Positions 2 through 60,919 of a stretch of 64,000 nucleotides of DNA are shown one piece after another (position 1 is the first letter of the stretch; each line of letters begins with the position of its first letter). The notes beneath the pieces were generated by a model, which worked only from the letters and a program-made list of their open reading frames with translations, was not told the DNA's origin and did not search any database. The position numbers were made by a program, and so were the translations under genes. The stretch is taken from NCBI GenBank assembly GCA_947646735.1, contig CANTFK010000991.1:248001-312000 (forward strand). Direction: 5' to 3'. This DNA is from Peronospora farinosa (taxonomy: Eukaryota; Oomycota; Peronosporomycetes; Peronosporales; Peronosporaceae).

Positions 2-1813
2 GGTAATGACATCGGCTCTCGTATAGAGCGAGTGAAGGTCAATGACCTTGTTAGTGAAGTCACTGGTACTAGTGACCCATTGGGTGTCGGTAATGACATC
101 GGCCCTTACATAGGGCAGGTAAACGACAAGGGGTCTGTTGACCTTGGGGACGATAACATCCCAAGTACTTTGAAGAGTACGGTCTCGTCAAGGAGACGGC
201 AGCGTCGCCAGATGGCGGCTGCGAGACGCAAAGCGTCTGTTTTATCGCATAGTAATGTCAATGACCAGTTGTACACCCTGGTCAACGGAGTGACAGGTGA
301 TGTAGATGGTGAGGTTGACCTTGAGGCCCTCCCATCATTAAATGCTCTTTTAGAGCTAGGCGAAATGTCTGTGGATGAATTTCATCAGGCCTTGAAGGCA
401 GGTGCTCTGTCCGATATGGTGGTCATTCGACCTAACCTCGAGCTGAACTCATCCTCGCTTGTCGATGAGACAGTCCTTGAAGATACCAAAGCGGCACTAA
501 GTGCACGTAGTGGGGCATCTATTCTGAAGAACCCTTCATATCCCTACTATCCTTTGGTAAAGGAATTCCAGGACGTGGTGTGTCACGATCCACCGTCGGT
601 TCTACCACCTGATAGGGGCGTACGTCATGAAATTGACTTGGTTCCCGGAACCAAGTGCTGTGTAACACGGCAGTGGCCTTTACCCAAAGAACAGTGTGAC
701 GTCATTGACGAGTTCTTTCGTGCAAAGCACGCGGCGGGCATGGTGCGTGAAAGTAAATCTCCGCACTCGACACCCACTTTCTGTGTTAAGAAACCGAATG
801 GTAAATGGCGTATTGTTCATGCTTATAATAAGCTCAATGCGGCCACTATACCTGCACAGACACCGATACCTAGAAAGGATGTTCTTCAGAACAATATGGT
901 CGGTTGTACCATGTACAGTGCGCTCGACTTAGTCGATGGTTATTACCAATTGCTCATGCGAGCTAGTGATATTCCGCTTACTGCTGTTAGTACTCCGAGC
1001 GGTATGCTCTGGGAGTGGTTAGTGATGCCCCAAGGGCTATCTAATGCTCCGTCTACGTTTAACCGTTTGGTGAAGCAATTGTTTCGACCCCATCGAAGTT
1101 ATGCACAGACGTATTTTGATGACATTTTTGTCCATAGCCGAGCTGAACATGGGCGGTCAGATATTGAGAACCATATTGTTCATTTACGAGCAGTGCTCGA
1201 GTGCATGCGCACTAATAAATTATATGCTAATGCCTCTAAGTGCATCTTCGGGGCCGAAAGGGTTCCCTTTCTAGGGTGCTTCATTGAGAAGCGAGGACTA
1301 CGAGCGGATCCCGCCAAAGTCAAAGCCATATTCGATTGGCCTGTTCCACAATCTCAGAAGGACTTGCGTAAATGGCTTGGCCTTGCCAATTACTTACACA
1401 AGTATAGCGAAAATTACGCTGATATGGCTCGGCCATTATCCAATCTCCTTAAAAAGGATGTGGAATGGTGTTGGCATGCCGAACACGAAAATGCTTTTCA
1501 AGCAGTGAAGGCAAGCCTTCTACATGCTCCTATTTTGGCTTTGCCAGACCCTGACCGACCGTTTAGCGTCGTCTGTGACGCATCGGACTTTGCCATTGGC
1601 AGTGCTCTGTTACAATCAGATGATGAAGGGCGTGAGCGTGTAATCGCTTTTGAATCTCGCCAGCTGAAAGCTGCAGAAAAGAACTATCCAGTTCACGACA
1701 AAGAGCTACTTGCGATGAAGTACGCCCTGGTCAAATTCAGAGTTCATCTGCTGGGCTCAAAGCCTTTTGTGATCTATACCGATCATGCGTCGTTACGCAC
1801 TGCGACTCAGTAG
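2..1813 (+). pseudogene. Gypsy A pol, part 1: reverse transcriptase and RNase H
   Basis: This is the pol polyprotein of a Ty3/Gypsy chromovirus, which copies element RNA into DNA. The frame is open from base 2, so it starts outside the window; the GTG at 32 is not a convincing start. An acidic N-terminal region is followed by the RT entry motif RHEIDLVPG near 625, a TPIPRKD block near 865, and the catalytic Y-F-D-D at about 1112-1123. RNase H begins near 1560 ([11 protein letters not shown]). The frame ends at TAG 1811-1813. C and B carry a Ser codon of a [11 protein letters not shown] block at that point, and the same frame resumes at once, so this is a nonsense mutation inside RNase H. The family assignment is very secure. 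Confidence 0.9.
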
Positions 1814-2766
1814 CCGCATCTCTCGCAGAGAATGGCCAGATGGCTGTCATTCTTTGCCGAATATAACTTCGAGGTAAAATATAAGCCGGGCAAGCAAAAT
1901 GCTTTGGCTGATGCGTTGTCACGCAGACCTGATTATGAGCTTGCTCATGTGACGATGTTGTCGTCTTCTATCACCGATCTCATTCGTACGGCGTATGCTA
2001 AAGATGATCACTGTATAGCGTTGCTACATGCTCTTGGCAGTGAGGAGTTTAAAGACTCGGACATTAAATTGTCGGCACGATTGCGTGCAAGCCTCCATCG
2101 ATATTCTATCGATGAGGGGCTGTTGTACTATCGTACAGATGTAGCGGATCCTCCGCGTATTGTAGTTCCTCATGACGAGGACCTGAAGCATCGTATCCTC
2201 TATGAGGTACATGACACCGCCGTCGGTGGTCATTTGGGTCGTGAAAAGACCTATGGGGCAGTATGCCAAAGTTATTGGTGGCCCAAATTATACAAATGGG
2301 TGAGCACATATGTGCGTACGTGTGAAATGTGTCAGCGGGTGAAACCCTCGCCCCATTCGGCAGCGCCGCTGGATAATTTGCCTATTCCCACTGGGTGCTG
2401 GGAATCCATTAGTATGGACTTTGTATTTGGCCTACCGAAAGATTCGCATGGCAACACAGGTATTGTGGTCTTTGTTGACCGTTTGAGCAAGATGGCTCAC
2501 TTAGCGGCTGTGCCAGATTCGATCGATGGTGTGGGTACAGCGGAGCTGTTTATCGATCGGGTGTTTCGCCAACATGGCTTGCCAGTGGCAATTGTTTCTG
2601 ATCGTGATCCGCGTTTTACGAGTAAATTTTGGAAGACCGTTTTTCAGGTGCTGGGCACCCGTTTGGACATGTCCACGGCGGATCATCCGCAGACCGATGG
2701 TCAAACCGAACGCGTAAATCGCGTTGTTGAAGATATCCTACCAGCGTTTGTGCTGAAACGCCTAAG
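1814..2766 (+). pseudogene. Gypsy A pol, part 2: RNase H end and integrase zinc/core
   Basis: This stretch continues in the same frame after the TAG. It opens with the end of RNase H ([13 protein letters not shown], then [11 protein letters not shown]). The integrase HHCC zinc domain follows: the histidines lie in HDTAVGGH near 2210 and the cysteines in CEMCQRVKP near 2330. The catalytic core shows the first Asp in MDFVFGLPK near 2415, the second in SDRDPRF near 2600 and the Glu in DGQTERVNR near 2700. Close to 2762 a single base is missing relative to sister elements, and the reading moves to frame 1. Integrase would insert the cDNA into host DNA. This copy is defective, but the lesions look few. 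Confidence 0.88.
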
Positions 2767-3738
2767 CGATGGAGCGCTATGCTCCCTGTCGTTGAGTTTG
2801 CACTCAATAATTCCGTGCACGCCTCCACCGGCTACACTCCGTTCTATGTCAATGGTCTCACACACCCACGCGTTCCGTTAACGCTACCACCGAGCGGTTC
2901 AAGGCTTGGTGGTGGAGAGGTTGCCGATCGGCTTGCTGATGTCAGCCCTAATACTGTTAGGAAACAGGTAAATGCGTTTCTCGCAACGCGACTAAATGTC
3001 TTACGACATGTGCAAGATGCAATGGCTGATAGTCAAGATAAACAAAAGGAATATGCAGATGCGAAAGGCAGAGGTTGTATTAATGATTATGAGGTCGGAG
3101 ACCAAGTATTACTTAATGCTAAAAACCTACCTACCAATGTAGTATCTGCTGTCTTTAAGACGAAGTTGCGTCCGCGCTTTATCGGACCCTTTAAGGTCAT
3201 TGCCAAGAAAGGCACAGCGTATACGCTTAACTTGCCGCGCAAATTGCGTACACATCCTGTGTTCTATGTCGCCATGTTGAAACCTTATCGGGATCCGTCC
3301 CAAATAGACGCTAAGGCGCTCGCGCCGGGCCCATTGGCATTGTCGCGGGACGGAGCATCTGCACCAACAAGTCAAGTTGACCCTGCATTCGGGTCCGACT
3401 CTCTTCCAGGGACTCAAGCCGGGAGTTCATCGTCTGCCTCTCCTCACGAAGGGTCCGCACCTCCTGAACAAGCTCGGCATGAGCTTGTTCCGATACACCG
3501 ACCTCCTCCTCCTTTGCTCGATGCGCAGGGGAACCTGCAGTTCCATGTGGAGCGTCTACTGCAGAAGCGTCGCCGCCATGGTCAAAACCAGTATCTGGTG
3601 AAATGGCGGGGTTATCCCGAATCATGGAATTCATGGGAATTTGAGACTCCCATTCGGCAGGATTGCCCGTACGCCGTGGACGTTTTTGAGCGTCGTGCGC
3701 AGGGTCTGTCTGTTGGCGCTGACGCTTCTCACCAGTAA
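2767..3738 (+). pseudogene. Gypsy A pol, part 3: integrase C-terminus and chromodomain
   Basis: After the 1-bp deletion the open frame carries the end of the integrase core (EFALNNSVHASTG). It then has the GPY/F module (RFIGPFKV and THPVFYV, about 3175-3275), a Pro/Ser-rich linker (about 3300-3510) and a chromodomain at about 3535-3700 (FHVERLL, YLVKWRGYP, SWEFE). In chromoviruses this C-terminal chromodomain steers integration towards chromatin marks. The stop is at 3736-3738. The linker and chromodomain lie opposite the antisense reading frame at 3311-3802. The two frames face each other on opposite strands, and neither shows internal stops. Confidence 0.88.
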
Positions 3739-3802
3739 GGGTGAGGGTAGGCGGGTTAGCGGCCTGGGGCTGTCGTGAACTCGCGGCTACAGGGGTAGCC
3801 AA
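3311..3802 (-). CDS. Antisense gene of Gypsy A, C-terminal coiled-coil part
   Basis: The frame has no ATG at its 5' end (3800-3802 reads TTG), so I read it as the continuation of the 3787-4593 frame. It encodes a basic patch (KRQRQQ, KRPRR) and then a long heptad-rich helix: ELVQEVRTLREER, then MNSRLESLEESR, then QLDLLVQML. It ends at 3311, opposite the start of the pol linker. The position of the coiled coil, on the strand opposite the integrase-chromodomain linker, is the same in B, C, D, E and F. The protein could be a dimeric nucleic-acid or chromatin cofactor of the element, but that is inference. Confidence 0.55.
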   Translation of the reverse strand: MATPVAASSRQPQAANPPTLTLTGEKRQRQQTDPAHDAQKRPRRTGNPAEWESQIPMNSMIRDNPAISPDTGFDHGGDASAVDAPHGTAGSPAHRAKEEEVGVSEQAHAELVQEVRTLREERQTMNSRLESLEESRTRMQGQLDLLVQMLRPATMPMGPARAP

Positions 3803-4593
3803 ACATTGGGCTGCTGGGCAGCAGGCGCATAATGCGTTAGTTGGGATTTCAATTTCCCCCGGGCCTTCAATTTAGCGTAATCATAACGCATCTTCCGCTC
3901 AAGTCGAACATCTGCCACATCGGCACTTGCCCGTAGGGCCCACATGCTGCTTAAACGTCGCGCATAATGCGCCCAGCGGCTGAAAGCCGTGTCTTCTTCT
4001 TCCTCGGTTTCCCCCGCGAACAGAAGGATGGGAACACCCTTCATCGGAGGAACTGGCGCACCGCGCACTTGCCTATTAAGGCGTGCCAAGTATTGGCTTT
4101 GAGTAGTGATATGGGGCTCCAGATATCGTTGTCGTAGTGCCGTGCGTGTGGCAACATCCTCAGGTGAAATGGCCTCAGGCCCAATGGTCCAACCAGAGAG
4201 GGAATGACCAGATGCTTCCTTTAGACGTTCTTCCACCGTAGGTGGCTTGAACCTGTACTGTCGGTGGTCCTGCAGCCGCGTCATGTTCTTCGTTCGGCGC
4301 TTGGCGCCTTCCTCTTGGTCGATGGACCGCTGTTGCTGCTCGTCGAGTGGATTGGTAACCGTTACCGTTGATGATGCGTCAGGCGGGTCACGTAACGCTG
4401 TTAGCGCATCTGCTGCACCACGTTCAGGGAACGGATTCGGTGCATGACGAGTGTCATCTTCACCCGTGAGGGTGGCTAAAGGTAACCCATCGGGTCCCAC
4501 AAAGACGGTGTCACTTTCATAATCGACCGCTTCGTCAAGGTCGTCTTCAATGAGGTCCCGAAGAGTCTGTGACTCACTGCCGGGAGGCGTCAT
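3787..4593 (-). CDS. Antisense gene of Gypsy A, N-terminal part (unknown function)
   Basis: This 268-codon frame runs against pol, starting at an ATG (4591-4593) about 110 bp inside the 3' LTR. Its N-terminal 40 residues are strongly acidic and contain DEAVDYESD. That motif recurs as VVDYSGESD in Gypsy B and FVDYNEST in Gypsy F, at the same place relative to the LTR. Mid-protein there are charged helical stretches and a run of acidic residues (GETEEEEDTAF). I recognise no domain. The frame stops at 3787 where the coiled-coil frame (3311-3802) becomes open, so the two are probably one gene broken by a frameshift. Less likely alternatives are a small intron or recoding. The antisense reading is well supported; expression is unproven. 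Confidence 0.6.
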   Translation of the reverse strand: MTPPGSESQTLRDLIEDDLDEAVDYESDTVFVGPDGLPLATLTGEDDTRHAPNPFPERGAADALTALRDPPDASSTVTVTNPLDEQQQRSIDQEEGAKRRTKNMTRLQDHRQYRFKPPTVEERLKEASGHSLSGWTIGPEAISPEDVATRTALRQRYLEPHITTQSQYLARLNRQVRGAPVPPMKGVPILLFAGETEEEEDTAFSRWAHYARRLSSMWALRASADVADVRLERKMRYDYAKLKARGKLKSQLTHYAPAAQQPNVWLPL

Positions 4594-4702: not shown

Positions 4703-5651
4703 TGTAACGGGGTTACACGACGGTTGTAGCGTCTTTCCGAGAGTTTACGCTTAAACTCTCCTTTCTATTGCATATAATGCATTATTATACTTCTCTTTAG
4801 AGAGGTATTAAGTATGAGCGTTATAATACGGTATTCGGTAATACCGTATCTTATCGATTGGGATTCGATAAATCACTAACGCTGTATTAAGTACATATAC
4901 ACAGATGTTTAGACGATACGTCGTCCAATAGCAAAGTCTGCATATAATAATTACTATTATAGTAATTAATCTAGTGTAGTGTACTTAGAGTAGGACTATT
5001 CATAAAATCTTAAAGCATAAATATAATCAGTTCTCCTTTTGAGTTTAAGATCGCAAGTAGTTCTGACTTGTTCTCTTGTGCACTTCGTGCGTTGGTTCTC
5101 TGAACCTTAAGCATATTGCTGATTGATTAAAAGTCTCTTTCCTAGTTCCTTAGAACAGGGAGACTTTAAGTCGTTTAATTAGTTCCTCAGAACTAAGTGG
5201 CTTTAAGCCTTCACTCTATTTAGTTCTCTAGAACTAAGAGGCTTCCAGCCGAAAGTCTTCCTCTGGCTAAAGAGCTGTGTAGCTCCGCTACAAAAGGCTT
5301 CACCAATGCTCTTCAAGAGACTTGTCATCCACACTTACGTCATGCAGTCGCCGAGTGCCATGTTATCAGCCTCGGTTGAGCTCAAAGCGACGGGTTATGT
5401 AAAGTCTAATGTCATACCACTGAACCGCCGCGCTTCATAAACATGATGCTGCTCACCGAGCGTCGGCTGTTGCAGTTGCCGTCCCTGTCCGCATCCGAGA
5501 AGGCACCTCACTTAGCGTTTACGTAACCGTTGTATTGAATACCTACGTCCTTATCTTTATTAGGCGACACATCTGCACCCCTATGCTACTGACCATAATG
5601 TTCTGGAAAAGACTCAGTTTTTAAAAGCAGTAGAGATGTCAAGTCAAGTCA
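4703..5651 (+). repeat. Gypsy A 3' LTR, first copy (949 bp)
   Basis: It starts TGTAAC-GGG-GTTACA, a short terminal palindrome directly after the polypurine tract, and ends AAGTCAAGTCA. It holds AT-rich U3 sequence and three evenly spaced palindromes (5144, 5181, 5222). A block of about 350 bp near 5293-5640 is missing from the second copy. No gene was seen here. Confidence 0.75.
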
Positions 5652-7127: not shown

Positions 7128-7634
7128 ATGCGCGTCGCTGCCAAGGCAGCCAAGAGCTCGGCTGCACGCCTGTGTGCAGCCGCTACTGAGGCTTCACAGC
7201 CTCAGCCAGCAGACACTAATGTGTCTACTGGAAGTAAACATCAGCCTGCAACGTCTGTTGCAGGTTCACGTAGCGCTTCGCCACGTGAAGATGTTGACCC
7301 AGAGTTAGTCGTTGACTACTCTGGTGAGTCGGATGACGCATTCGGCTCAAAGTCACCTGTTTCACTCCCGGGCTCTCCCCGGGGTGATACCTCGTCGTCA
7401 AATGTTTCGAAGAGGGATCGTGGTACATTGAGTGAATCAATGTACCGTGAAATGTTCGGGTCGTCCGATGAATCAGACGACTCGCCAAACGAGTCGAAGG
7501 ATAGTGACTCGGGTGGGGACCGTAAGGGTGATGTCAATGCTTCTACTGACTTCAGTGCACGTGGTGTCGGTCCTTCTGTCGATACTAATGCACGTGGTGT
7601 CGGTTCTTCTGTTGACACCACGCAGGAGCTTTAG
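7128..7634 (+). CDS. Antisense gene of Gypsy B, N-terminal acidic/Ser-rich part
   Basis: This 168-codon ATG frame runs opposite to B's gag and pol and starts about 110 bp inside the 3' LTR, the same position as in A. An Ala/Lys-rich N-terminus is followed by DPELVVDYSGESDDAF. That motif aligns with DEAVDYESD in A and FVDYNEST in F. Then come Ser/Asp-rich, strongly acidic stretches (SSDESDDSPNESKDSD) and a short ARGVG.SVDT repeat. The frame ends at 7634 and homologous-looking coding continues from 7646 in another frame, so a frameshift or intron is likely. It looks disordered and acidic. I cannot assign a function. Confidence 0.5.
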   Translation: MRVAAKAAKSSAARLCAAATEASQPQPADTNVSTGSKHQPATSVAGSRSASPREDVDPELVVDYSGESDDAFGSKSPVSLPGSPRGDTSSSNVSKRDRGTLSESMYREMFGSSDESDDSPNESKDSDSGGDRKGDVNASTDFSARGVGPSVDTNARGVGSSVDTTQEL

Positions 7635-7645
7635 ACCGCAAAGTA

Positions 7646-7909
7646 TTGCGTTTTGCTCCTGATCGCAAGCCGTGGATGCTATCTCAGCATCTGCTTGATC
7701 GTTGGTCTGGGAAGACCAACGAAAGGTTCCTCATACCGTTGTGTGATGCGTCAAAGCTTCACGGCCTTGACGCCATTGAGAAGAACATTTGCACTGAGAA
7801 CGATTATTACATCGATGTATTTCTTAAGCATCGATGGTGTGGCCCACACAAAAAGCGTGAGGCTGACGCGTTCCTCCATCTTGGAACGCGTTTATCACCA
7901 ACGTCTTAA
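7646..7909 (+). pseudogene. Antisense gene of Gypsy B, middle part
   Basis: This open frame of 88 codons sits in a different phase from the preceding one, 12 bp further on. It encodes a compact, probably folded segment with several aromatics (KPWMLSQHLLDRW, FLKHRWCGPHKK). No known domain was recognised. Sequence between 7910 and 8139 stays rich in short coding-like pieces but has stops in each frame. I treat it as a decayed internal part of the same antisense gene. An intron is possible, but no clear splice sites were established. Confidence 0.35.
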
Positions 7910-8139
7910 ACGTTGGGAAAGAGGCTTGGTTTCATAGACTTTATGCTAGCCGCAATAAGTTTGAAAAACGAAGTACGTCCGGTGCATGCTATCGTTTGCA
8001 CCGGTTATCTAGAGAGGCAGGCCTGTTATGCCTCTCTTAGAGCAACCCATGCCCGAGGTGTCTGAGCACCTCGTAAAGAGCGCCTAAGGAGGCTTACCTC
8101 CTTACTGAGCCCTGGTGGAGGGCTCGCATCTCTTCTGAT

Positions 8140-8835
8140 ATGCGTGAAGGGATTGCTACTTTGCAGATTCTTTACGAAGTCGCTGGGCGCTCGTTTTCCG
8201 ATGATTCTTCTTCACCATCGGGTATGCCTTGTCGTACTGCTCAACAAGGCCGGGGACGTCGGCCATCAGTTGGGCCCGAGGTTCCCAGCAATCCGCCGAA
8301 GGAGGATAGCCACGCCATCGGACGAGATAACTCGTCCGACGTCCCTTCACCTCGCGGTGCTTTAGTAAGCGTTCCACGAGGAAGCGCTTCCCACCATGGG
8401 AGTCCACCAGCGGATGCGGTGGTGGAGGAAAAACCCTGTCCGATTCTTTCATCGGACTTGTCTGCTGAGTTAGACGGGTTTGCCCGTGTAACTCGTGAGC
8501 TACGTTGTGATGTTGATCACGAACGGGATAAGCGTCGCCTCTTCGAGGACATTGTGCGACAGCTTGAATTTGACCATGAGAAGTCTCGGGCAAACAATGC
8601 TGTCGCACTGTTGGAGAATGAACGGCGATATCATTCTCTAAGTAACGAGCTGGCGACAGCTCGTCAGGAGATCGTCCGATATCATGGGAAGATATCATCT
8701 CTACACGACCAGGTATTGAACCTGGTTCGTGACAACAAGAATCTGAAGGGAATTCTGGAGAATAATGGCTATCTTCGTCGTTCGAAGAAGCCACGTATTG
8801 AACGTACAGACAAAGACGTTCCACGTAAAACGTAG
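8140..8835 (+). CDS. Antisense gene of Gypsy B, C-terminal coiled-coil part
   Basis: This 231-codon frame starts at an ATG. Residues of about 1-110 are low complexity. From about 110 to 215 there is a long, regular coiled coil (DHERDKRRLFEDIVRQLEF, ALLENERRYHSL, LHDQVLNLVRDNKNL). A basic tail, RRSKKPRIER, completes it. It is opposite the B chromodomain and linker (8156-9334, minus), and both strands are open for nearly 700 bp. The coiled coil plus basic tail, opposite the pol linker, repeats the arrangement in A and F. Confidence 0.55.
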   Translation: MREGIATLQILYEVAGRSFSDDSSSPSGMPCRTAQQGRGRRPSVGPEVPSNPPKEDSHAIGRDNSSDVPSPRGALVSVPRGSASHHGSPPADAVVEEKPCPILSSDLSAELDGFARVTRELRCDVDHERDKRRLFEDIVRQLEFDHEKSRANNAVALLENERRYHSLSNELATARQEIVRYHGKISSLHDQVLNLVRDNKNLKGILENNGYLRRSKKPRIERTDKDVPRKT

Positions 8836-9334
8836 GATGCGTACGCATCCTGCGTGGAAACTCGATCGTGTATGCGTTGCCTAGGCGGCGCAATACACGA
8901 AACGGACCGATGTACTTGGGCAACAATTTATTGCTGCCTACGATAGTCACTACATGTTTAGGTAGGTTTACTGTTGACAGTAAAACTAAATCACCTTCAA
9001 TAAATGTCTGAGCATTTGCCCTTCCATTATTGTCTGCGTTTCGCTTTTGCTTATCCATCGCTTCTGCGATGGACTCTTGCACGAAACGGATTAACGAATC
9101 ACGAGTCAGCAGGAAATCCTCAGCTGACTCGTTGCTTTTGGCTGCAGTGCATTGTGAGTGCACTGCAGAGGTACGTGTTACTAACTCAGCGAGAACATTA
9201 CTGTTCTCACTTGTGATACCTCGAACGATGCTGATATCTTCAGCATCGTTATCAGTAAGAGCGCCATCGCTCTTACTTTCTTCCTCTTCACCGAAGTCGA
9301 ATGGTACGACTTCGGTTACTTTCGCGTCGACCAT
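8156..9334 (-). pseudogene. Gypsy B integrase C-terminus and chromodomain
   Basis: The frame shows an acidic lead, then an integrase tail (ITSEN to AMDKQKRNADNNGR), the GPY/F module (KYIGPFRVLRRLGNAYTIEF, then THPTFYVERL), a long linker, and a chromodomain at about 8200-8360 (FLVERLLKHREVKGRR, YLVRWRGYPPS, CWEPRAQL). The stop is at 8156. It is the C-terminal end of a polyprotein broken upstream by several frameshifts. It overlaps the antisense coiled-coil frame. Confidence 0.85.
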
Positions 9335-9370
9335 AACGTGGTCGCGTGATGAGCAAGAGCCAGTTTGGTT

Positions 9371-14309: not shown

Positions 14310-14647
14310 TGTAATGGGCTACATTACACACATAGTAAACACAAATAAACAAATACAGATGTAGACAGGTGCTGGGCCCGAATAGCGGGTACAACGTGAC
14401 AGTTTATTATTGGTTATTATTGGGCCTAAAGTCCCCAATATGGACCAATGATAAATCAACCTGAAATTGTGTGGTTCCCGAAAGGCGGGAACACTGTCGT
14501 ATTTATTACGACCAAAATCGTCGTAATTAGTACGAATTAAAACCAAAATGAAAATCAGAGTTAAATTTACTTATACCTAATACTTGGGCTTGAGTCTTCC
14601 TCAAGCGCGCGTGTAAGCTAGTGACGGTACGTTCTAGCCCCGTTACA
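14310..14647 (+). repeat. Gypsy C 5' LTR (338 bp)
   Basis: It starts TGTAATG-GGCTA-CATTACA and ends AGCCCCGTTACA. Its partner is 26277-26617, and it is closely related to Gypsy D's LTR at 60578-60919. The left flank ends ATGAT and the right flank begins ATAAC, compatible with a 5-bp target duplication with two later transitions. Confidence 0.9.
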
Positions 14648-20230: not shown

Positions 20231-20967
20231 AGGCAATTGGCGACGCTTATACACTCGACGTCCCCTCTTCACTGCGACTCCACCCGACATTCTATGTCGG
20301 GCGGCTGAAGGAATATCGTCCGGCTACGCTTCACGGTTTGGCTCCGACGCCGGCTTCAGGGGTTCGTAAGTCGAACGGCCTTCCCGTCGTGCTCGACGCG
20401 CCGATGACATGGGGCGGGGTCTCTATCCCGTCTGAACCTGACCAAGCATCTGGCGCTCCAGAATCCTTATCCGCTCGAGCAGTTCACGGTTCGACTGCCG
20501 GGTCTCACTCGAAGTCTTCTCCGCCTGGGCAGCACGTTCACTGGCAGCCTCAGCCTCCAGCTGAGCATCGGCAGCTATGTTCACGGCCTGATCAACATCG
20601 TCCTGGGGAACCAGGACGCCAGCACTACCATCGCGAGGTCCCTCCTCGGCTTGTTGATGCGGAGGGACAGGTGCGCTGGATTGTAGACCGCATTGTGGGT
20701 CACGAGGACCCTCCACAACCATTACTGCAGTCGGCTCATGAGAAGCGTGCGGTTCCATCCGTGCGTAGGTACCGAGTACGTTGGCTTGGATTCCCTCCCG
20801 AGCAGGATACATGGGAACCACGTTCCTCACTCCTTCGTGACGTTCCAAATGTGGTTCTGTCGTATGAAGCCACGAAGTCGGGCTATTCCAAGGCGGGCGA
20901 GCACGCGAACGCTCTCGTAACAACGAGAGCGGTAAGAAGATCCACGTCGTCGAGAGCAGAACGATGA
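20195..20967 (+). pseudogene. Gypsy C integrase GPY/F module and chromodomain
   Basis: This is the -1 frame relative to the core. It starts with LAPRFIGPFKV and HPTFYVGRLKEY, followed by a Pro/His-rich linker (about 20335-20640). The chromodomain is at about 20660-20860 (RWIVDRIVGHED, YRVRWLGFPPEQ, TWEPRSSLL). A Ser/Arg tail ends at 20967, only about 30 bp before the Copia-1 insertion. An ATG-less continuation of integrase is the simplest reading. Only a recoding event or a copy without the 1-bp gap would produce it. Confidence 0.8.
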
Positions 20968-20998
20968 CGTGAACGAAAACGATGCCGTAAGCGAGAAC
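20423..20998 (-). pseudogene. Antisense gene of Gypsy C, C-terminal part
   Basis: The minus-strand frame opposite chromodomain and linker is open over 20423-20923 and continues recognisably to the Copia-1 junction at 20998. It reads RERSRARPPWNSP, a Pro/His-rich middle, and a coiled-coil end (AADAQLEAEAASERAAQAEK, then RELLERIRILERQMLGQVQ). Gypsy D has the same frame, uninterrupted. In C the gene was cut in two by Copia-1; its N-terminal part is at 25509-26263. Confidence 0.55.
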
Positions 20999-21224
20999 TA
21001 AAGGTTATTGGAGAGGTTGGAAGTGCTTGAGTGGTTTAATGCAAAACGCAAAGTGATTCATTTGGTCCTTAGTTCGCATACACTACTCTAAGCCTAATGT
21101 TTACCCTCTGGATACACTCTACTTGATCCAAACTTCAACTGCATCCAATCACCGAACTCTAACTGCATCCAATCACAGGAATGACGGTAGTATCGCAGCT
21201 GGTCGAGACGTCATATTGACAACA
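20999..21224 (-). repeat. Copia-1 3' LTR (226 bp)
   Basis: On the minus strand it runs from TGTTGTCAATATGACG to CCAATAACCTTTA. The other LTR is 25284-25508 (225 bp), with roughly ten differences, so this is an older insertion. Flanks are AGAAC (20994-20998) and TGAAC (25509-25513), a 5-bp duplication with one mismatch. Confidence 0.88.
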
Positions 21225-21233
21225 CTCCCACTC
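21225..21233 (-). other. Copia-1 polypurine tract
   Basis: The minus strand GAGTGGGAG directly precedes the 3' LTR. Confidence 0.65.
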
Positions 21234-21337
21234 GACTCGACAGCCGATGATGCCATAATGCCAAGTTTGCTTCGGAGCGTACCAATCTGTGGGCCGGGAA
21301 TTGGCTTCGTCATGAGGTCGGCCAGCATGTCAAGTGT

Positions 21338-22285
21338 TTACACATACTGTAGCACAACTTGGCCATCTTCCACCTTCTCGCGTACGATATGTCGATGTGC
21401 TTGGTGCGCTTGTGAAACTCGGGATTCTTGGCCAACGCAATCGAACCTTGATTGTCCTCGTAGATCTTGACCGCTTCGTCCTTTGCCATTTCTCCAAACT
21501 CGCATAGGAAGACCTTTAATTAACTGCCTCTTGAGTAGCTTCCGATAGTGCCATGTACTCAGCTTCCGTTGAGACAGCGCCACCGTTCTTTGTTTCTTGC
21601 TTCTCCAACTGATACACCCGCCGTTCATCATGAACGCGTAGCCACTTGTACTTCGGCGCGACTTAGTGTCGACTGCCCAGTCTGCATCCGAATAGCCTGT
21701 ACGAGCATCGCCATCCGCCGTGAAGTCGATGCCGTAGGTATTCGTGCCTTGAACGTATCGAAATACCCGCTTTAGCGCTTGCCAATGTGTAGGACATGGA
21801 TTTGCTGCAAATTGGCTGAGGACTCCCACTGCAGCGGCAAGGTCGGGACGCGTGCCAACCATAAGGTACATGAGGCAACCAACAGCACTTCGGTAGGGCA
21901 CGTTTGTCATTGTGTCGCTGTGATTGCACCCATCCTCGCACATGGACTTCGCCAATTTAAGTCCTGGATCTTGTGGTGTCTTGACTGGATTGCTGTTGTC
22001 CATGCCAAACTTGGTCAAAACGTTCTTAACGAACTTGGTCTGACGCATCGATACCTTTCCACGTTCTCGATCAACTTCCATGCCAAGAAAGAAGTTGAGC
22101 TTACCCAAGTTGGTCATCTCAAATCGATCACTCAAGGCGTCCTTTACTGTATTAAGCATCTTGTCACTGCTGCTTGCAAGTATCAAGTCGTCCACATAGA
22201 GTTCGACGAAGATTATGGCTTCACCGTCGCGTTTCGTGTAGATGCAGTGGTCAGATTCACATTTCTTCAAACCAAGCTTCAGCAT
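21338..22285 (-). pseudogene. Copia-1 reverse transcriptase end and RNase H
   Basis: The frame holds the Copia RT catalytic motif Y-V-D-D (VELYVDDLILA) near 22195. It continues to the thumb and RNase H (GYSDADWAVDTKSRRSTSGY), then drifts into an unrelated-looking end (KLSTWHYRKLLKR), where the usual EAEYMAL block is frameshifted. RT copies element RNA. The piece is in the same phase as 22307-22639, with a stop between them near 22290. Confidence 0.85.
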
Positions 22286-22306
22286 GAACTCGTCAATGGT
22301 CTTGTT

Positions 22307-22639
22307 TCACATGCGCGGCGATTGCTTCAGTCCGTACAGCAATCGATTGAGCTTGCACACGAGGTTGGGATTGCTGTCCTTGACGTAACCTTCAGGCTGA
22401 ATCATGTAAATGTCTTCGTCCAGCTCACCATTGAGAAAAGCAGTCTTGACGTCCATCTGGTGCACGGTAAGATCGTATTTCGCCGCAAGACTTAGCACGA
22501 TTCGGATTGACGTGAACTTTGCCACAGGCGCGAATGTTTCTTCATAGTCAATACCGAACTTTTGCGAGAATCCTTTTGCAACCAGGCGTGCCTTGAACCG
22601 CTCAATTTCTCCATTCTTGTTTTCTTTGACACTAAACAC
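22307..22639 (-). pseudogene. Copia-1 reverse transcriptase, N-terminal half
   Basis: It reads MFSVKENKNGEIERFKARLV, KGFSQKFGIDYEETFAPV, and QMDVKTAFLNGELDEDIYM, the conserved start of Copia RT, including the first catalytic Asp block. It ends at a stop after LLYGLKQSPRM. It is in the same phase as the frame that follows. Confidence 0.88.
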
Positions 22640-22738
22640 CCATTTGCAGCCGATTGCTTTGCGACCTTTGGGAAGCTGGACAAGATCCCATGTCTTGCTC
22701 TTGAGCAGCGAGTTGATTTCGGAGTCGCACGCTTCTTC

Positions 22739-23242
22739 TCATTTCACAGAGTTGATGGATTCCATCGCCGACCTGTGCGTGGTCGGCATTTCTCCCACTG
22801 AATCCACAACGAATCCCGCCTCAAAATCTCCTTCAGCAATGGCCGACATGTGCTTGAGACTACGGTTTTGTCGCTTCGAACTCGGAATTTCCGTTGCTTG
22901 ATCGAGAGATTGTGTTCTTGGATGTCTTTTGTCGCCAGGCGCGAAGTCTGTCGTTTGGACGTCCTCAACGTCTTCATCTTCACTCAAAGCTTCATCCGTA
23001 TCTTTATGGTCCGTACTCACTTCCTCGTTGAGATCAGTGACCGCTTGTTCTTGGACAGATCTACCACCGTCGAAGACGTCTTCCATAAACTGCGCATCAC
23101 GACTTACGGTGACGCGCCCACTTGATATGTCCTCAAAGCGGATGGACTTGAGATGCTCCGCGTAGCCCAAAAACGGCATAGTGAAGCCTTGGCATCCAAT
23201 TTTGAGCGTTTCTCGTGCGGAATATGGACGTACGCATGACAT
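22739..23242 (-). pseudogene. Copia-1 integrase-RT linker
   Basis: The frame starts in the end of the integrase region (PFLGYAEHLKSIRFEDISSG) and continues through an acidic linker (DEALSEDEDVEDV) to ESINSVK just before the RT. Linkers of this kind are variable and disordered in Copia elements. Phase changes relative to the integrase core frame lie near 23110-23240. Confidence 0.75.
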
Positions 23243-23859
23243 ACAAATACCTTGAGGTTTGTCGGTACAGGCTTCTTCTTCGTCCAGACATCATAAGGTG
23301 ACTTGTCTTCACTTATGGCTCTTGTTGGGCATCGGTTTCGCAGAAACATTGCCGTCGTCACAGCTTCGCCCCAATAATTCTTGGGTAATCCAGCGTGCTC
23401 CAGCATGCAACGAGCACATTCCACGAGCGTCCGGTTCATTCGCTCCGCGACCCCATTCAGTTGTGGTGTGTACGGCGGCGTGTACTTTCGAACAATACCG
23501 TTCTTTGTACAAAACTTCGCCATGTCTCCAGCCGTGTACTCGCCGCCGTTGTCACAAATTAGCGTCTTAACGCGATTACCAGTTTGAGTCTCGGCAAGAG
23601 CAACAAACTCAGCAAACTTGGTGGTCACTTCGGACTTCTTCTTCATAAGATACACCACGCAGTATCTTGACTTGTCGCCAATGAACGTGACGAAGTATCG
23701 TTTGCCACTGAAAGTTAATCTTGACATAGGTCCACAGACGTCGCTGTGAATGACATACAGAATCTTGCTTGAGCATTTCGGTGCTTTCGATTGAAAACGC
23801 ACGCGTGTTTGCTTACCAAGCGCAAATCCATCACAAACATCCCAGTTTTCGACAGACAA
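23104..23859 (-). pseudogene. Copia-1 integrase core
   Basis: The frame shows the integrase catalytic core: HSDVCGPM (first Asp), ICDNGGEYTAGD (second Asp, near 23545) and NGVAERMNRTLVECAR (Glu, near 23440). The downstream GEAVTTAMFLRNRCPTRA block is typical of Copia. The upstream zinc-domain frame (23715-24362) is in a different phase, so an indel lies around 23715-23860. Confidence 0.88.
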
Positions 23860-24362
23860 TATGTTGATCCAACACCAAGTTTCTTTCTTACGATGGTATC
23901 AAGTCCATCGTGGCCCACATGACCAAGTAAAAGGTGCCAGAGGTACGACTTAGTGTCCCCATAAGATCCCGACGACTTGGCTGCATTGGCTTCATCTCCC
24001 AGAAGTGGCGTCATTTGAAGCTTGAAGAGACCTTTACCCTCACGAGCTCCGATCTTCCACTTCATTTTTTTCGTTTCGGCAAAACAGCCATCCGTGTCGA
24101 ATGTTACAGGACCGACGTCCTTAGTAAATCGACCGACCGAGAAAAGGGTGCGGGATAGCTTGGGAATGTGCCACACCTTCGTCAGTACACCCTTCTTGAT
24201 ACCCTTCGGGGTCTTCATAGACATCATTATGTCACCACATCCAATTGCTTGAATGACACCATCGTCTGCAAGGTGCACGTCAATTGGAGAGAAGAGCTTG
24301 TAGTTTTTCATGAACTTCTTGGAGCACGTCATGTGCTGCGTCGCTCCTGAGTAGCCAGCCAC
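23715..24362 (-). pseudogene. Copia-1 protease and integrase zinc domain
   Basis: It begins in the aspartic-protease motif (SGATQHMT), continues through a protease-like region (GCGDIMMSMKTPKG), and reaches the integrase zinc domain (WHLLLGHVGHDGLDTIV, with the expected cysteines lost by frameshift). The catalytic Asp codon itself is where gag-pol goes out of frame: the gag frame runs WLATQE while this frame reads AGYSGAT, as if one base of the Asp codon were lost. Confidence 0.8.
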
Positions 24363-25279
24363 ACTTCATCCGCGTTGTCGGCGCTCTTACTCCAGCCAAC
24401 CGAAAACAGATAGTCGCCGTCATTTTCGTTCTGAGCGACGTTTGCGCAATGCGATCGGTAGCGTTCCGTGTTGTCTTGGCCTCGCGAAGGACACTCCGCG
24501 ATCCAATGACCCATTTTGCCGCAATTATGGCACGCCCCAGTCTTCTTCACCGGTCGCCCTTTGTTACGCTTGTTTTCCCTTGTCATAAACGCTTGGCCAT
24601 GGGTAGCTCCGTCGACGCTACCACCTTTCTCCTTGCGTTTCATGTCCTCATGAAGGAGCCTAGACGAACGCTCCCACGTCAGCGTATCAGCTCTCGATTC
24701 CAACGCAGTGATGAGGAACTGGTACGATTCGCTGAGACTTCCAAGCAGCGTGATTACCAGGTCGTCAGCACTGACCGGAGCACCGACTGCTTCGAGCTGC
24801 TCTGCCAGAGTCTTTTTCTTGTTGATGTGTCCCATCACATCGTCTCCTTCTTCCATCGTGACTGTGAAGAGACGACGACGAAGAAAGAGCTTATTCGCCA
24901 AGCTCTTCTTCTCGAAGTGGTCTTCAAGTCTTGACCATGCATTATGCGCATCACTTGCAGAGCGGACGAGCGGCAGTTGCGAATCTTCCATAGCCAAGCA
25001 GATATCTGTCATGGCCTTGCGAGACTTCCTCTTGAACGACGCTTGATCCATCGTGTTCGCCAAGTCACCAATATTCACTTCCCCAGAGACGAGCAGCAGT
25101 TGCGAATCTTCCATAGCCAAGCAGATATCGGTCACGCTCCTCGAGCACCATCTGCATCTTGAAAATTCCAGGCGTAGGAGGTTGTACCCATTAAACTTGT
25201 TGATGCGGCTCAGGGACGAATGCTTCATCGCGAACGCGTAGTCGGACGCAGAGGTTGAGGTGGCGGGGCTTGGGCTCAT
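24329..25279 (-). CDS. gag: Copia-1 gag with zinc knuckle
   Basis: It starts at the ATG (25277-25279) that lies inside the primer-binding site, five bases after the LTR. The UBN2/gag-type capsid domain follows (HNAWSRLEDHFEKKSLANK, LFTVTMEEGDDVMGHI, LLGSLSESYQFLITALESR). The CCHC knuckle is CHNCGKMGHWIAEC near 24520. The N-terminal half contains an internal repeat: DICLAMEDSQL occurs twice, 38 residues apart. The frame runs out at 24329, just after WLATQE at the damaged protease site. Confidence 0.85.
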   Translation of the reverse strand: MSPSPATSTSASDYAFAMKHSSLSRINKFNGYNLLRLEFSRCRWCSRSVTDICLAMEDSQLLLVSGEVNIGDLANTMDQASFKRKSRKAMTDICLAMEDSQLPLVRSASDAHNAWSRLEDHFEKKSLANKLFLRRRLFTVTMEEGDDVMGHINKKKTLAEQLEAVGAPVSADDLVITLLGSLSESYQFLITALESRADTLTWERSSRLLHEDMKRKEKGGSVDGATHGQAFMTRENKRNKGRPVKKTGACHNCGKMGHWIAECPSRGQDNTERYRSHCANVAQNENDGDYLFSVGWSKSADNADEVWLATQERRST

Positions 25280-25283
25280 AACC
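25270..25283 (-). other. Copia-1 primer-binding site overlapping gag ATG
   Basis: On the minus strand GGTTATGAGCCCAA follows the LTR directly. It is complementary to the anticodon arm of initiator tRNA-Met (GGGCUCAUAACC) and contains the gag ATG. Confidence 0.8.
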
Positions 25284-25508
25284 TAAAGGTTATTGGAGAG
25301 GTTGGAAGTGCTTGAGTGGTTTGATGCAAACTCAAAGTGATTCATTTGGTCCTTAGTTCGCTTACGCTACTCTAAGCCTAATGTTTACCCTCTGGATACA
25401 CTCTACTTGATCCAAACTTCAACTGCATCCAATCACCGAACTTCAACTGCATCCAATCACAGGAATGACGGTAGTATCGCAGATGATCGAGGAGTCATAT
25501 TGACAACA
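25284..25508 (-). repeat. Copia-1 5' LTR (225 bp)
   Basis: Partner of 20999-21224. About ten substitutions or indels distinguish the two. Confidence 0.88.
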
Positions 25509-26263
25509 TGAACGTCGTGGTGAATACATATCACGATTGCGAGGCGAGAATCGCGCAACTGGACGGGCAGGCGAACGTGTCGCTGCCCTGCGCTGATGAT
25601 CCCGCGGAGATCGACTCCGCTGTCGCGAGTGGTGCCGCCAGCAGGGCGCACCACGAATAACTGCGCTTCTCCGTTCGCCCAGACTTCGCTCATACTTCGC
25701 AATCCAACTGCGTTCGCGATCGCTGAGTGGACAATCAGCGATTTGTCGTCGCCATTCGTCATGAGTTGGGCGTGGAGTCTAGTCACAAGACCGGCATCCT
25801 ACATTGACATGGACAAAGCAGAGACGGTCCTCATTCCAAGCTTCCTCACACACCCTTTCGCGTAGCGCGCCGATGGAGTGATCGGTGCGAAGCTCCTCTC
25901 GATTGGCGAGCCATAACTGAAAGCTGCTACCATCCTCAAGCATCCGAATCCAACGTTGGATGAAGACGCACCAAGAACGTTGTAGAGCTTCATGCTCGAT
26001 TCCATCAAGACCTTTCCCGCGCAATTTCGAAATCGGCGGAAGTAGTCCCGCATCATGTCCAGTGAGTCCGGAGCGTGAGCTCCGGACAAGTCGTACAGCG
26101 ACCAAGGTATGAGCTGCCGCGCCATGATGCTGGTTGATGCATTCCCGCTGATGTATCTTGGGCGTCCTGCTGGATTGGGTTCTGGGTCTCCGGACATTGC
26201 TTGTTCGTTTGTGGGCGAAGGGTTTTCGACAGTTGAGCACTCACGGTTGGTGAGTGCTGTCAT
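25509..26263 (-). pseudogene. Antisense gene of Gypsy C, N-terminal part
   Basis: It starts at an ATG (26261-26263) about 14 bp from the 3' LTR: MTALTNRECSTVENPSPTNE. The frame 25799-26263 holds PWSLYDLSGAHAPDSLDMM and breaks near RFRN. The next phase (25779-26240) continues with KLRGKGLDGIEHEALQRSW and ends CRSCD-stop. D reads TCG (Ser) where C has TAG, and D continues into a Cys/His cluster. C therefore carries one frameshift, one nonsense change and the Copia-1 insertion. The same W..Y.L.GA motif is found in the relic at 31094-31381. Confidence 0.5.
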
Positions 26264-26276: not shown

Positions 26277-26617
26277 TGTAATGGGCTACATTACACATAT
26301 AGCATTAACACAAATAAACAATTACATATGTAGGCAAGTGCTGGGCCCGAATAGCGGGCACAGCGTGGTAATTTATTATTGGTTTATTATTGGGCCTAAA
26401 GTCCCCAATATCGACCAATGATAAATCAACCTGAAATTGTGTGGTTCCCGAAAGGCGGGAACACTGTCGTATTTATTGCGACTAAAATCTTCGTAATTAG
26501 TACGAATTAAAACCAAAATGAAAATCAGAGTTAAATTTACTTATACCTAATACTCGGGCTTGAGTCTTCCTCGAGCGCGCGTGTAAGCTAGTGACGGTAC
26601 GCTCTAGCCCCGTTACA
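26277..26617 (+). repeat. Gypsy C 3' LTR (341 bp)
   Basis: It starts TGTAATG-GGCTA-CATTACA and ends AGCCCCGTTACA. It is very similar to 14310-14647. The sequence after it (ATAACAGTATAG) resumes the Gypsy B LTR. Confidence 0.9.
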
Positions 26618-30846: not shown

Positions 30847-31381
30847 TTAGAAAACATTATAGGTTTCGCTGGCTAGAAGCCTTGAACTATGTTGGCTCAT
30901 GATATTCCCGACGTGGTCGCAGATTATAAATCCAAGAAGAAGACGGCGATCGCGACCAAATTTGTCGCTCTCATCCACGATCTCGCCAGCCGTGGCACTC
31001 ATGAGCAGCTGATACACGACGCCGATCAGCAGAGGTTCGAATAACATGGATGGTATGGTAGTCAATTTTGACTGCGTGAAAGACCATAGCGAATTAAGCT
31101 TGGGAATCAAACTCTTGAACTCCTGATCGAAAAAACACTGCGCCACTTGAACGAGTGAAGAGCTTTTTCAAACCGTCCGGTAATTCTGGTTGATCAGCGC
31201 CGGTAAGGCTGTATGACGCCCACCGTTTTAGGTTCTTTTCCATCACTCGCGGTGCCTGATTCTTACAGATCGTCGCCTGACGGTTGTTGTGGTCAAAGAA
31301 ACCTTTGCGCACGCAGCTAGGGACCATGCTGCTCGCTGTGTAGGCTCGAGATTGTGTCGTTGGAATTTTTGGTGATAACAA
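30847..31381 (-). pseudogene. Antisense gene of Gypsy E, N-terminal relic
   Basis: Two minus-strand frames lie just inside the E 3' LTR. 31094-31381 contains RWASYSLTGADQPELPDGLK, which lines up with PWSLYDLSGAHAPDSLDMM of Gypsy C (shared W, Y, L, G-A, P, L). 30847-31146 contains LWSFTQSKL, which lines up with SWCAFTQ of Gypsy D. The order of the two blocks and the distance to the LTR match C and D. A BED-finger transposase was considered and looks less likely. It is a decayed copy of the antisense gene. Confidence 0.4.
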
Positions 31382-31423
31382 ACACTTTATGATATGATCT
31401 TACGCTGTAGTAAGCACAGCTTG

Positions 31424-36401: not shown

Positions 36402-36431
36402 TGGTACATCAGTAGCAGAAAGCGATATTTC

Positions 36432-53803: not shown

Positions 53804-54285
53804 ATGCCACCGAAACGTGATAAGGCTGATGGGTCGCCTGCAAAGGCTACCATGCAGTCCAACACTAAGCGCACGCGCCGCGATTATCGCAGCCGTCGCA
53901 AAGTGCTTCAGGCACTGAGGTGAATCTTCAATCTCACTATAATGTGGATGAAGATTCATCTCTCTTTGTAGACTACAATGAGAGCACGCCATTGCCATCA
54001 CCCCAAAGTGGCGATGAGCAAAGCTCGTTGATGGGACATATGTCCCCATCATTTGAGGCACCCGTCCTTGAGGGAGCGTCTATGCTTCCTGCAAGTGAAG
54101 GCAAAACCTCGTCGCCTGCGCCTACGAGCGCAGAGACTAAGACTGAGCGCACTACTTCGAAAGGAGTAGTCGCGACTCAGTCAGATGTGACTCCTCAAGC
54201 TGATGTCTTGACAATCCATAATGGAGAGTCAGACTTAGGTGAGTGTGAGCTTAAAGCTCCACAAGTACACCTTCGGCCTCACTAG
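53804..54285 (+). pseudogene. Antisense gene of Gypsy F, N-terminal part
   Basis: It starts at ATG 53804 with a very basic leader (MPPKRDKADGSP, KRTRRDYRSRRK), shifts frame near 53900, and continues in 53920-54285. There it holds NVDEDSSLFVDYNESTPLP, the acidic VDY..ES motif also seen in A and B. Ser/Thr/Pro-rich sequence follows, to 54285. It is opposite in direction to F's pol and about 110 bp from the LTR, the same geometry as A and B. Function unknown. Confidence 0.5.
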
Positions 54286-54517
54286 CCCGCCGTCGCGAGG
54301 GGGCTACGTGAGTGGTGGCTTGCCACCAATGTCATCTCCATCTGAGTGGATGAACTCGGATGGGTCTAGTGCAGCGCTTTTGCAGCGTGCAACTATAGAT
54401 GCTCATAAATTATATAGCGTCTTTCCTTTGTAGAAAATGCAGGGCAAAGCACTTGGTCGTGCTGCGTTTTAACGAAACAGCCGACGAATATGAGCTAATC
54501 TTTGGCGCCGTGTTACC

Positions 54518-54709
54518 TTGCATTTAGATGCAACGAAACAACGGTCGCAGCGAATCAGCTTAGCCATGAATCGTGCGCATAAAAACTTGGGCGGTAAGCG
54601 ACCCCCAATTGATTCTCGCCACGCTTCTTCTGCTAGTCCATCCAGACCTAGCAGAAAGACGTCAGCTGATGCTGCTTCACATAAGCAGCCACCAGCCCAG
54701 TCACGTTGA
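54518..54709 (+). pseudogene. Antisense gene of Gypsy F, middle part
   Basis: The frame holds TKQRSQRISLAMNRAHKNLG, then a Ser/Pro/Arg-rich stretch (SASPSRPSRKTSADAASHKQ). A stop at 54707-54709 separates it from the coiled-coil frame, about 25 bp further on. It is assigned to the antisense gene by position only. Confidence 0.35.
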
Positions 54710-55378
54710 CGAGCAAAGCGTCAATAGGCTCCCATGAGTCAGAGCTCGTTGGGTCCTTCCACTGGACAAGTATTTGGAGCTTTCGTTTCACAAACCGGTG
54801 GTCCAACAGCCTTCCAACAAGGAAGCGCGTGCTCCCTTCCGCTTCCAACAACGCAGGTGGCTCCCGATAGGAGTGGCGATTACGCCCACCTACTCGCGGC
54901 TGCCTACCTTGCTGCTGTTCAGTCGCAGGCTGAGTCCACTGCACTGAAGAGGCAGGTGGCAAATCTCGTGAGTCAAGTCTCGCGACTGACTTTGGATCTG
55001 CGCGATGTGAGGACGAGGGACCGTCAGGGTATGACCGCCTGAAGACCCGTTTGGACATCTTAGAGCGACTGGTGATGAGAGACCCGCGTCAAGCGCGGAG
55101 TCCTCCTCGATCACCGAGTCCTCTATCGCCTCGTTCATACACGGGGAGCCTCTCGGCTTCCTCGTCGCCTGATCGGTCGCGACGCTCGACTCACAGTCGG
55201 CGTCACCATCGGTCTCGTTAGACCGATGTGGATATGTGATCTCTTCTGGATCAACATACCGCTTCAGACGACCCACGTAAAATACGGGGTGCGTCTTCAT
55301 ATACGGTGGGAGAGTGAGCCTATAATTTAGGTCTCCAACTTCTTCAACCACTGTAAAGGACCCAATGAACCGGGGCAA
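54648..55378 (-). pseudogene. Gypsy F integrase C-terminus and chromodomain
   Basis: 54890-55378 reads MPRFIGSFTVVEEVGDLNYR and THPVFYVGRLKRY, the GPY/F module. A frameshift joins it to 54648-55058, whose end is a chromodomain (RFLVGRLLDHRFVKRKLQIL, VQWKDPTSSDSWEP). In that domain the usual WRGYP has become WKDPT. It faces the antisense coiled-coil gene. Confidence 0.8.
54734..55222 (+). pseudogene. Antisense gene of Gypsy F, coiled coil and RS tail
   Basis: The first phase (54734-55042) ends in a heptad helix (STALKRQVANLVSQVSRLTL, then DLRDVRTRDRQG). The +1 phase takes over near 55030 with DRLKTRLDILERLVMRD and then an Arg/Ser-rich tail (RSPPRSPSPLSPRS, DRSRRSTHSRRHHRSR) to TAG at 55220-55222. 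This is opposite F's linker and chromodomain (54648-55378, minus). A single indel separates the two phases. Coiled coil followed by basic residues repeats B's design. Confidence 0.5.
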
Positions 55379-60577: not shown

Positions 60578-60919
60578 TGTAACGGGGCTAGAACGTACCG
60601 TCACTAGCTTACACGTGCGCTTGAGGAAGACTCAAGCCCGAGTATTAGGTATTAAGTAAATTTAACTCTGATTTTTATTTTGGTTTTAATTCGTACTAAT
60701 TACGAAGATTTTAGTCGTAATAAATACGACAGTGTTCCCGCCTTTCGGGAACCACACAATTTCAGGTTGATTTATCATTGGTCCATATTGGGGACTTTAG
60801 GCCCAATAATAAACCAATAATAAATTACCACGCTGTGCCCGCTATTCGGGTCCAGCACCTGCCTACATATGTAATTGTTTATTTGTGTTAATGCTATATG
60901 TGTAATGTAGCCCATTACA
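60578..60919 (-). repeat. Gypsy D 3' LTR (342 bp)
   Basis: The reverse complement of the C LTR type: TGTAACGGGGCTAGAACG to TGTAGCCCATTACA on the plus strand. Minus-strand GAGAAGGGGGTGA (60920-60932) is the polypurine tract. The partner LTR is outside the window. Confidence 0.9.

Follow-up and report, generated by a model that had tools for sequence, protein, structure and literature searches.

An antisense accessory gene in four related families of chromodomain Ty3/Gypsy elements of Peronospora

Gypsy elements of the window and their antisense frames

The window, the whole stretch of 64,000 nt analysed here out of the 46.85 Mb genome, contains six Gypsy elements (A to F). Five of them carry an antisense frame that begins close to the 3' LTR and extends backwards across the chromodomain of pol; in E it is partly preserved. 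The carriers are chromodomain Ty3/Gypsy elements with the order gag, protease, RT, RNase H, integrase and C-terminal chromodomain. This order was pieced together from A (RT to chromodomain), C (gag to integrase), D (integrase to chromodomain) and B (chromodomain); the whole of it is visible in no single window copy, and the chromodomain of F is a motif read in locus L079. The antisense gene is broken in all six window copies: by one frameshift in A, into four pieces in B, at least three in D and five in F, and by an insertion in C.

Pol of element A occupies 2..3735 on the plus strand (pieces 2-1810, 1814-2878 and 2731-3735) and encodes RT, RNase H, integrase, an SH3-like domain and the chromodomain. 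Its 3' end overlaps the antisense gene, which encodes one protein on the minus strand. A single-nucleotide frameshift splits that protein into an N-terminal part of 268 codons (3790..4593, minus strand, frameshift at its 3' end), comprising the acidic N-terminus and the helical domain, and a C-terminal part with the disordered stretch and the coiled coil (3314..3871, minus strand), which lies in a different frame in the window copy. The 3' LTR (4703..5292, plus strand) begins TGTAACGGGG and follows immediately upon a purine-rich tract at 4691-4702; 110 nt lie between the LTR edge and the first antisense ATG. About 360 bp past this LTR is a second copy of it, 87% alike, at 5652-6286, which is either a solo LTR or the end of another element. 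In element B the antisense gene (7128..8832, plus strand) likewise encodes one protein, from pieces 7128-7631, 7616-7906, 7867-8037 and 8077-8832, and faces the 3' end of pol with its SH3-like domain and chromodomain (8159..9370, minus strand). The LTR edge is at 7018 and the antisense ATG at 7064 or 7128, 46 or 110 nt away.

Element C lies between a 5' LTR at 14310..14647 and a 3' LTR at 26277..26617, both on the plus strand. Its antisense gene is divided by a Copia element with a Copia-type gag (about 20998..25508, minus strand) and has additional frame breaks. The N-terminal part (25509..26263, minus strand) is frameshifted and starts 14 nt from the 3' LTR; the C-terminal part (20327..20998, minus strand), with part of the RS-rich stretch and the coiled coil, contains an in-frame stop at 20423-20425. 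The pol spacer before RT in this element carries a tandem in-frame repeat (16383-16858) whose best-matching pair is about 84% alike, and opposite the repeat runs a long open frame (16147-16845). In element D the antisense gene (60933..62368, plus strand; pieces 60937-61257, 61328-62269 and 62273-62368) has its first ATG at 60933, 14 nt from the 3' LTR (60578..60919, minus strand), and the integrase and chromodomain part of pol extends over 61515..64000 on the minus strand. Element E retains a relic of a C/D-type antisense gene at 31097..31399 (minus strand), recognised by the C/D profile at E 2e-7. The antisense gene of element F (53869..55218, plus strand) is in five pieces, and a pol piece with the SH3-like domain (54893..55438, minus strand) lies opposite its 3' part.

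A preliminary description of this DNA had placed an antisense gene at the 3' end of all six elements. That placement holds for A, B, C, D and F; in E it holds for 31097-31399 only, and the piece at 29320-29529 that had also been assigned to the gene has no profile match as an antisense gene at E up to 1. The start close to the 3' LTR was borne out in the four elements in which the distance was measured, A to D, with the first ATG 14 to 110 nt away. Elements A to D thus show the position of an antisense 3' accessory ORF of LTR retrotransposons (aORF-3R), antisense to gag-pol and near the 3' LTR.

The window also holds two copies of a sugar-transporter gene. One (34150-40250) is interrupted at 34645-39318, where a Copia element with two identical LTRs of 195 bp has inserted; the other has a long open frame at 50291-51853, and the aligned parts of the two are 97-98% alike. 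A further Copia-type element at 42864-48100 has identical 378-bp terminal repeats and is therefore a recent insertion.

Open frames and selection across the genome

Across the genome the antisense genes fall into four families, A, B, C/D (which includes E) and F. Elements C and D share 97.6% identity across 2295 nt, and RT identity between families is 57-65%. Matches number at least 146 for A, 127 for C/D and 150 for F, and at least 155 and 157 for B with two query pieces. The occurrence in many copies and in related species that characterises an aORF-3R was thus found for all families in their own genome and, for A, B and C/D, in other species at the protein level. Open antisense copies outside the window encode 427 aa in A, 588 aa in B and up to 493 aa in C/D; in F the open frame is at least 469 aa, its start falling outside the stretch examined. 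A frame of at least 400 aa is present in 20 of 30 A copies, one of 588 aa in 3 of 10 B copies, one of at least 440 aa in 11 of 30 C/D copies and one of at least 469 aa in all three F copies, which were chosen for open frames. Among the 30 A copies the antisense frame and the pol segment are both open in 18 and neither in 6, with only one of them open in 2 and 4 (Fisher P 0.007), a co-occurrence that age alone could explain.

The antisense gene overlaps pol by 141 to 285 codons, and the relative frame in the overlap is offset 2 in all four families; in A this is also the only frame ever open after codon shuffling. One reading is that there is no gene at all, the frame being kept open by pol codon composition and the overlap and the database homologues being misannotated by-products. 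Part of the frame does overlap pol, and when pol codons were shuffled the overlap antisense frame of A stayed open in 280 of 5000 trials (5, 3 and 1 of 5000 in B, F and C/D); the overlap alone is therefore not decisive for A, whose case rests outside it. The observed frame was, however, reached in none of 2000 first-order Markov simulations in any family. By this measure the frames are longer than chance would give.

Selection was measured by comparing each copy with one real reference copy and counting replacement (N) and silent (S) changes; for the expected values, the observed mutations were redistributed randomly over sites of equal base and CpG state. P values derive from 300 to 1000 placements, so that 0.001 and 0.0025 are floors, and are uncorrected over many frames and parts. 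The initial 30 A copies had been picked as the top scorers with the antisense protein, a choice that itself lowers N; A was therefore recomputed on the 19 copies (reference included) that top the DNA ranking, and the 30-copy figures serve for comparing sub-regions. B and F were tested on parts beyond the selecting query to avoid sampling bias. Beyond the pol overlap, omega in A, B and F ranged from 0.19 to 0.68 by part and sample, compared with 0.5 to 1.5 in LTR frames. The preliminary description had named neutral evolution of these codons as evidence against its proposal; the result is purifying selection in A, B and F and, in C/D, an omega of 0.97, close to neutral.

In the antisense-only part of A (19 copies), N was 28 and S 40 against expectations of 46.5 and 22.1 (omega 0.33), with 3 stops where 2.4 were expected. 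Constraint is strongest in the helical domain (N 9 and S 25 against 22.6 and 12.1; omega 0.19, P 0.001) and also marks the acidic N-terminus (omega 0.31, 19 copies), while residues 251-285 are unconstrained (omega 1.6 to 2.0). Shared variants in the helical domain fall on codon positions 1, 2 and 3 in numbers of 6, 0 and 23 (30-copy set). Four of the other five frames of the antisense-only region gave omega 1.6 to 2.2; the fifth, at 0.45, has its silent position in common with the antisense frame. In the reference copy, each sense-strand frame of this part is interrupted by 7 to 15 stops. For the same 19 copies, omega was 0.36 in pol beyond the antisense gene and 0.52-1.50 over 12 LTR control tests, one of them with P 0.02; across all 30 copies it was 0.47 in pol (0.30 for shared variants) and 0.72 to 1.18 in the LTR. 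Opposite the chromodomain, pol is constrained (omega 0.32) and the antisense frame gives 3.5; over the coiled coil neither strand is clearly constrained (0.84 antisense, 0.83 pol; 30 copies each).

Residues 189-363 of B, beyond the selecting query, had N 9 and S 15 against 15.5 and 7.4 expected (omega 0.28, P 0.005) in the 5 copies without indels, and omega 0.51 with all 10; the whole antisense-only part gave 0.40 (5 copies) and 0.68 (10 copies), and residues 1-160 are unconstrained (1.10). In three F copies residues 143-277, again beyond the selecting query, had N 13 and S 15 against 19.2 and 7.6 (omega 0.34, P 0.0025); the whole antisense-only part gave 0.55, and residues 1-142 are unconstrained (0.82). 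C/D is nearly neutral in the present genome: omega for shared variants is 0.65 (P 0.06), and pol in the overlap is equally neutral (0.94). The eight best integrase matches (L001-L008) had no nucleotide match to one locus per family and so provided no independent sample. These results indicate that A, B and F propagated with a working antisense gene and that C/D in the present genome mostly did not.

A 140-nt deletion in the antisense gene is common to 10 of the 30 C/D copies (L040-L043, L046-L048, L050, L051 and L054), which thus spread without an intact antisense gene of their own. Most copies of this subfamily are 96-99% identical in protein to the element D query, so that the spread was probably recent.

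The reading without a gene draws further on the near-neutral C/D copies, on the unverified gene models of the database homologues and on the position of the clearest between-family profile similarity, which sits opposite the chromodomain. Against it stand selection in the antisense frame beyond pol with LTR controls near 1, open frames exceeding all simulations and the high confidence with which the helical domains are predicted. The selection tests refute it for A, B and F, as far as the samples go, and overall it can scarcely be true. The antisense gene in these four families is thus real, and it is almost certainly a protein-coding gene maintained by selection. Another possibility is that the antisense RNA matters more than its product, double-stranded RNA limiting the element and the protein frame being secondary. 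In Phytophthora infestans, small RNAs match two Gypsy-type elements on both strands (PMC3522703). Purifying selection on codons, however, is not expected from a role of the RNA, and we regard this possibility as highly improbable.

Protein architecture and relatives

AlphaFold2 models of the A and C/D proteins share a predicted layout in which a helical domain is followed by a disordered stretch and a coiled coil; most blocks of the helical domains and coils have pLDDT values of 80-95. The helical domain spans residues about 80-250 in A (block pLDDT 79-94) and about 66-203 in C/D (blocks mostly 77-92); the coil covers 369-414 in A and 395-453 in C/D, and the disordered stretch of C/D is RS-rich. 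In both, the predicted coil faces the pol stretch preceding the chromodomain, in agreement with the preliminary description, and B and F have a coil-like stretch, judged by eye, opposite the same part of pol (the F chromodomain being a motif only). The weight which that description had laid on the coil as the basis of its comparison with HBZ shifts for A, in which the coil shows no clear constraint on either strand (0.84 and 0.83) and the constraint lies in the adjoining helical domain, which that description did not mention. The N-terminus is acidic in A, B and F (net charge -14, -10 and -10) and slightly so in C/D (-3); the core is net positive in A, B and F (+8, +8 and +9) and neutral in C/D, and basic clusters are present. 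Pfam scans of the antisense proteins found no domain, bZIP included, and TRP28 (PF04195) was absent from the matches at E up to 0.1 and up to 1. A structural search with the A and C/D models returned no convincing neighbour and no match to a DNA- or RNA-binding fold, which does not imply a new fold. Structure prediction, also suggested earlier, thus supplied a modelled domain layout for A and C/D but no Pfam domain and no clear structural match.

The RS content bears on a possible role of the protein as an RNA-binding or splicing/export factor for the full-length element RNA, in the manner of Rev. The C/D protein contains 22 RS/SR dipeptides, and its RS stretch has length variants of 18 nt that keep the frame; RS stretches recur in its Phytophthora homologues, and F has 13 dipeptides. 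A and B, however, with 5 and 8 dipeptides, lack a comparable stretch, and that of C/D overlaps the end of pol, so that its composition could be imposed. We consider such a role improbable.

Homologues of the A protein number 121, and the 120 listed come from Peronospora, Hyaloperonospora and unnamed assemblies. For B there are 189, and of the 120 listed, those with a species name are all from Peronospora; C/D has 18, from Peronospora, six named Phytophthora species (capsici, ramorum, rubi, fragariae, nicotianae and megakarya) and unnamed assemblies. Of the three families searched, only C/D had named Phytophthora homologues, as judged for A and B among the matches listed. The closest protein relatives are from Peronospora effusa (97% identity; P0001), and the homologues across species are uncharacterised. 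In a 17-row alignment of A proteins, 17 of the 19 invariant columns lie in residues 80-250, all beyond the pol overlap; two rows lack the C-terminus, so that residues past about 390 cannot be invariant and the coil could not score. Relatives were encoded in none of the 48 and 3 pattern matches among viral contigs.

P0149 and P0153 are clusters of 1335 and 524 'uncharacterized proteins' from Peronospora matthiolae that are B-type relatives and probably inflate the proteome of that species. Many 'uncharacterized proteins' of downy mildews, these clusters among them, may be retrotransposon antisense frames and not host genes.

Profile comparison of whole alignments by hhalign gave probabilities of 0.8% for A with C/D and 30% for B with C/D, in matches that map opposite the chromodomain and were discounted as imposed by the sense strand, and 0.7% for A with B, at the N-terminal motif. 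F entered the family comparison as three near-identical copies only. With antisense-only domains tested against 30 shuffles, A-F scored 20.1 against 19.8 and B-C/D 20.9 against 20.6, and the other four pairs were not above their shuffles. In windows on the N-terminal motif, covering six pairs at two widths, A-B alone exceeded all 100 shuffles. The A and B N-termini have an acidic VDY motif in common (3 of 1000 shuffles at width 10), which is not significant over the whole antisense-only part (223 of 1000). Homology between the families is therefore not demonstrable, nothing being significant beyond the chromodomain-imposed stretch save the short A-B motif. What had been described as one gene is, as far as can be shown, four families. 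The conserved accessory protein it was taken to encode is borne out in that the gene recurs in the lineage, is under selection in A, B and F and has relatives in further genera; C/D with E is near neutral. Related RT (57-65%), the same position, offset 2 in all four families and the A-B motif can be offered for a single origin. On a doubtful reading, put forward tentatively, one antisense gene was present before Phytophthora and Peronospora separated, and its descendants, now unrecognisable as kin, make up at least four families that feed back on the LTR of their own element. If true, each family joins a new helical domain to a coiled coil, and oomycete retrotransposons would have reached a deltaretrovirus-type antisense regulator independently.

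Possible function and comparison with known antisense genes

The antisense protein may, as proposed in the preliminary description, have a chromatin, RNA or regulatory role. The best explanation overall, with a probability of roughly 55%, is an LTR-driven antisense accessory gene that encodes a nuclear regulator. The first ATG is close to the LTR (14 nt in elements C and D, 110 nt in A, 46 or 110 nt in B). From this we infer that the promoter coincides with the LTR or adjoins it, and transcription would be driven in the antisense direction from within the 3' LTR. The combination of acidic N-terminus, helical domain and coiled coil suggests a dimeric nuclear factor. Such a protein would dimerise through the coiled coil, enter the nucleus and act in trans on the expression or the integration complex of its own element, its acidic N-terminus contacting host factors and its helical domain binding nucleic acid or chromatin. 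We favour control of sense expression, resembling HBZ in action and unrelated to it, and put the chances of this mechanism at about even. Several observations weigh against a nuclear regulator: the coil of A and the stretch opposite the chromodomain have no antisense constraint of their own (0.84 and 3.5), residues 251-285 of A, 1-160 of B and 1-142 of F are likewise unconstrained, C/D is near neutral with the 140-nt deletion in 10 of 30 copies, and no DNA- or RNA-binding fold was matched by the A and C/D models.

The protein might instead be a cofactor of the pre-integration complex that binds the integrase/chromodomain region or chromatin and aids nuclear entry or target choice. In each of the four families the gene accompanies an integrase with a chromodomain (a motif only in F), the helical or core domains of A, B and F are net positive, and a coiled coil would suit assembly. 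Nothing specific ties the protein to integrase, however, and an antisense message from the 3' LTR would be better timed for acting on an integrated copy; we hold this role to be rather unlikely.

HBZ of HTLV-1 is a product of the 3' LTR with an N-terminal activation region and a C-terminal bZIP that lowers sense expression (PMC10186651). In both systems an antisense gene lies near the 3' LTR, and the pairing of activation region and bZIP in HBZ with acidic N-terminus and C-terminal coiled coil here is a likeness of layout only. The present proteins differ from HBZ in giving no bZIP match and in carrying a helical domain between the two ends, and relatedness is unsupported. As regards the host elements, Chronos, an oomycete Gypsy element with a chromodomain and a second RNase H (PMC5348765), is like ours a chromodomain Gypsy element of the Peronosporales. 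Unlike Chronos, pol of element A, on which this comparison rests since the other copies are fragmentary, matched RT_RNaseH families only at E up to 0.01 and no second (archaeal-type) RNase H. The word antisense does not occur in the text of that study of Chronos and Archon. In line with the preliminary description, none of the open-licence PMC papers found by search reports such genes for Gypsy elements of oomycetes, as far as titles and the openings of abstracts show.

The present genes extend antisense accessory genes to chromodomain Gypsy elements of oomycetes. The plant elements considered here, other than Retand, are of the Tat type. PMC7264820 describes antisense ORFs in the same position in Grande of maize, RIRE2 of rice, Retand of Silene, PvRetro13 and the fungal Boty; that source describes gene23 of Grande as nuclear with its own promoter, and Boty, known here by description, as an LTR retrotransposon of Botrytis cinerea, a fungus and not an oomycete. 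Nearly all Retand elements (97% of clusters) encode TRP28 there (PMC11963269). The plant ORFs resemble the present gene in lying antisense to gag-pol near the 3' LTR and in occurring in most copies and in related species. The present elements differ from Retand, a non-chromovirus lineage with a long region between pol and the LTR, in having a chromodomain, a short pol-to-LTR region, a gene that overlaps pol and no TRP28 (PF04195). For the plant cases the evidence given in the passages considered from PMC7264820 and PMC11963269 is presence and localisation; here, the evidence of selection tells the antisense gene apart from its overlap with pol. Because the four families are related but differ in their domains, they offer a natural test of repeated acquisition versus inheritance, and retention as a working protein in three of them parallels the antisense genes of some retroviruses and plant elements.
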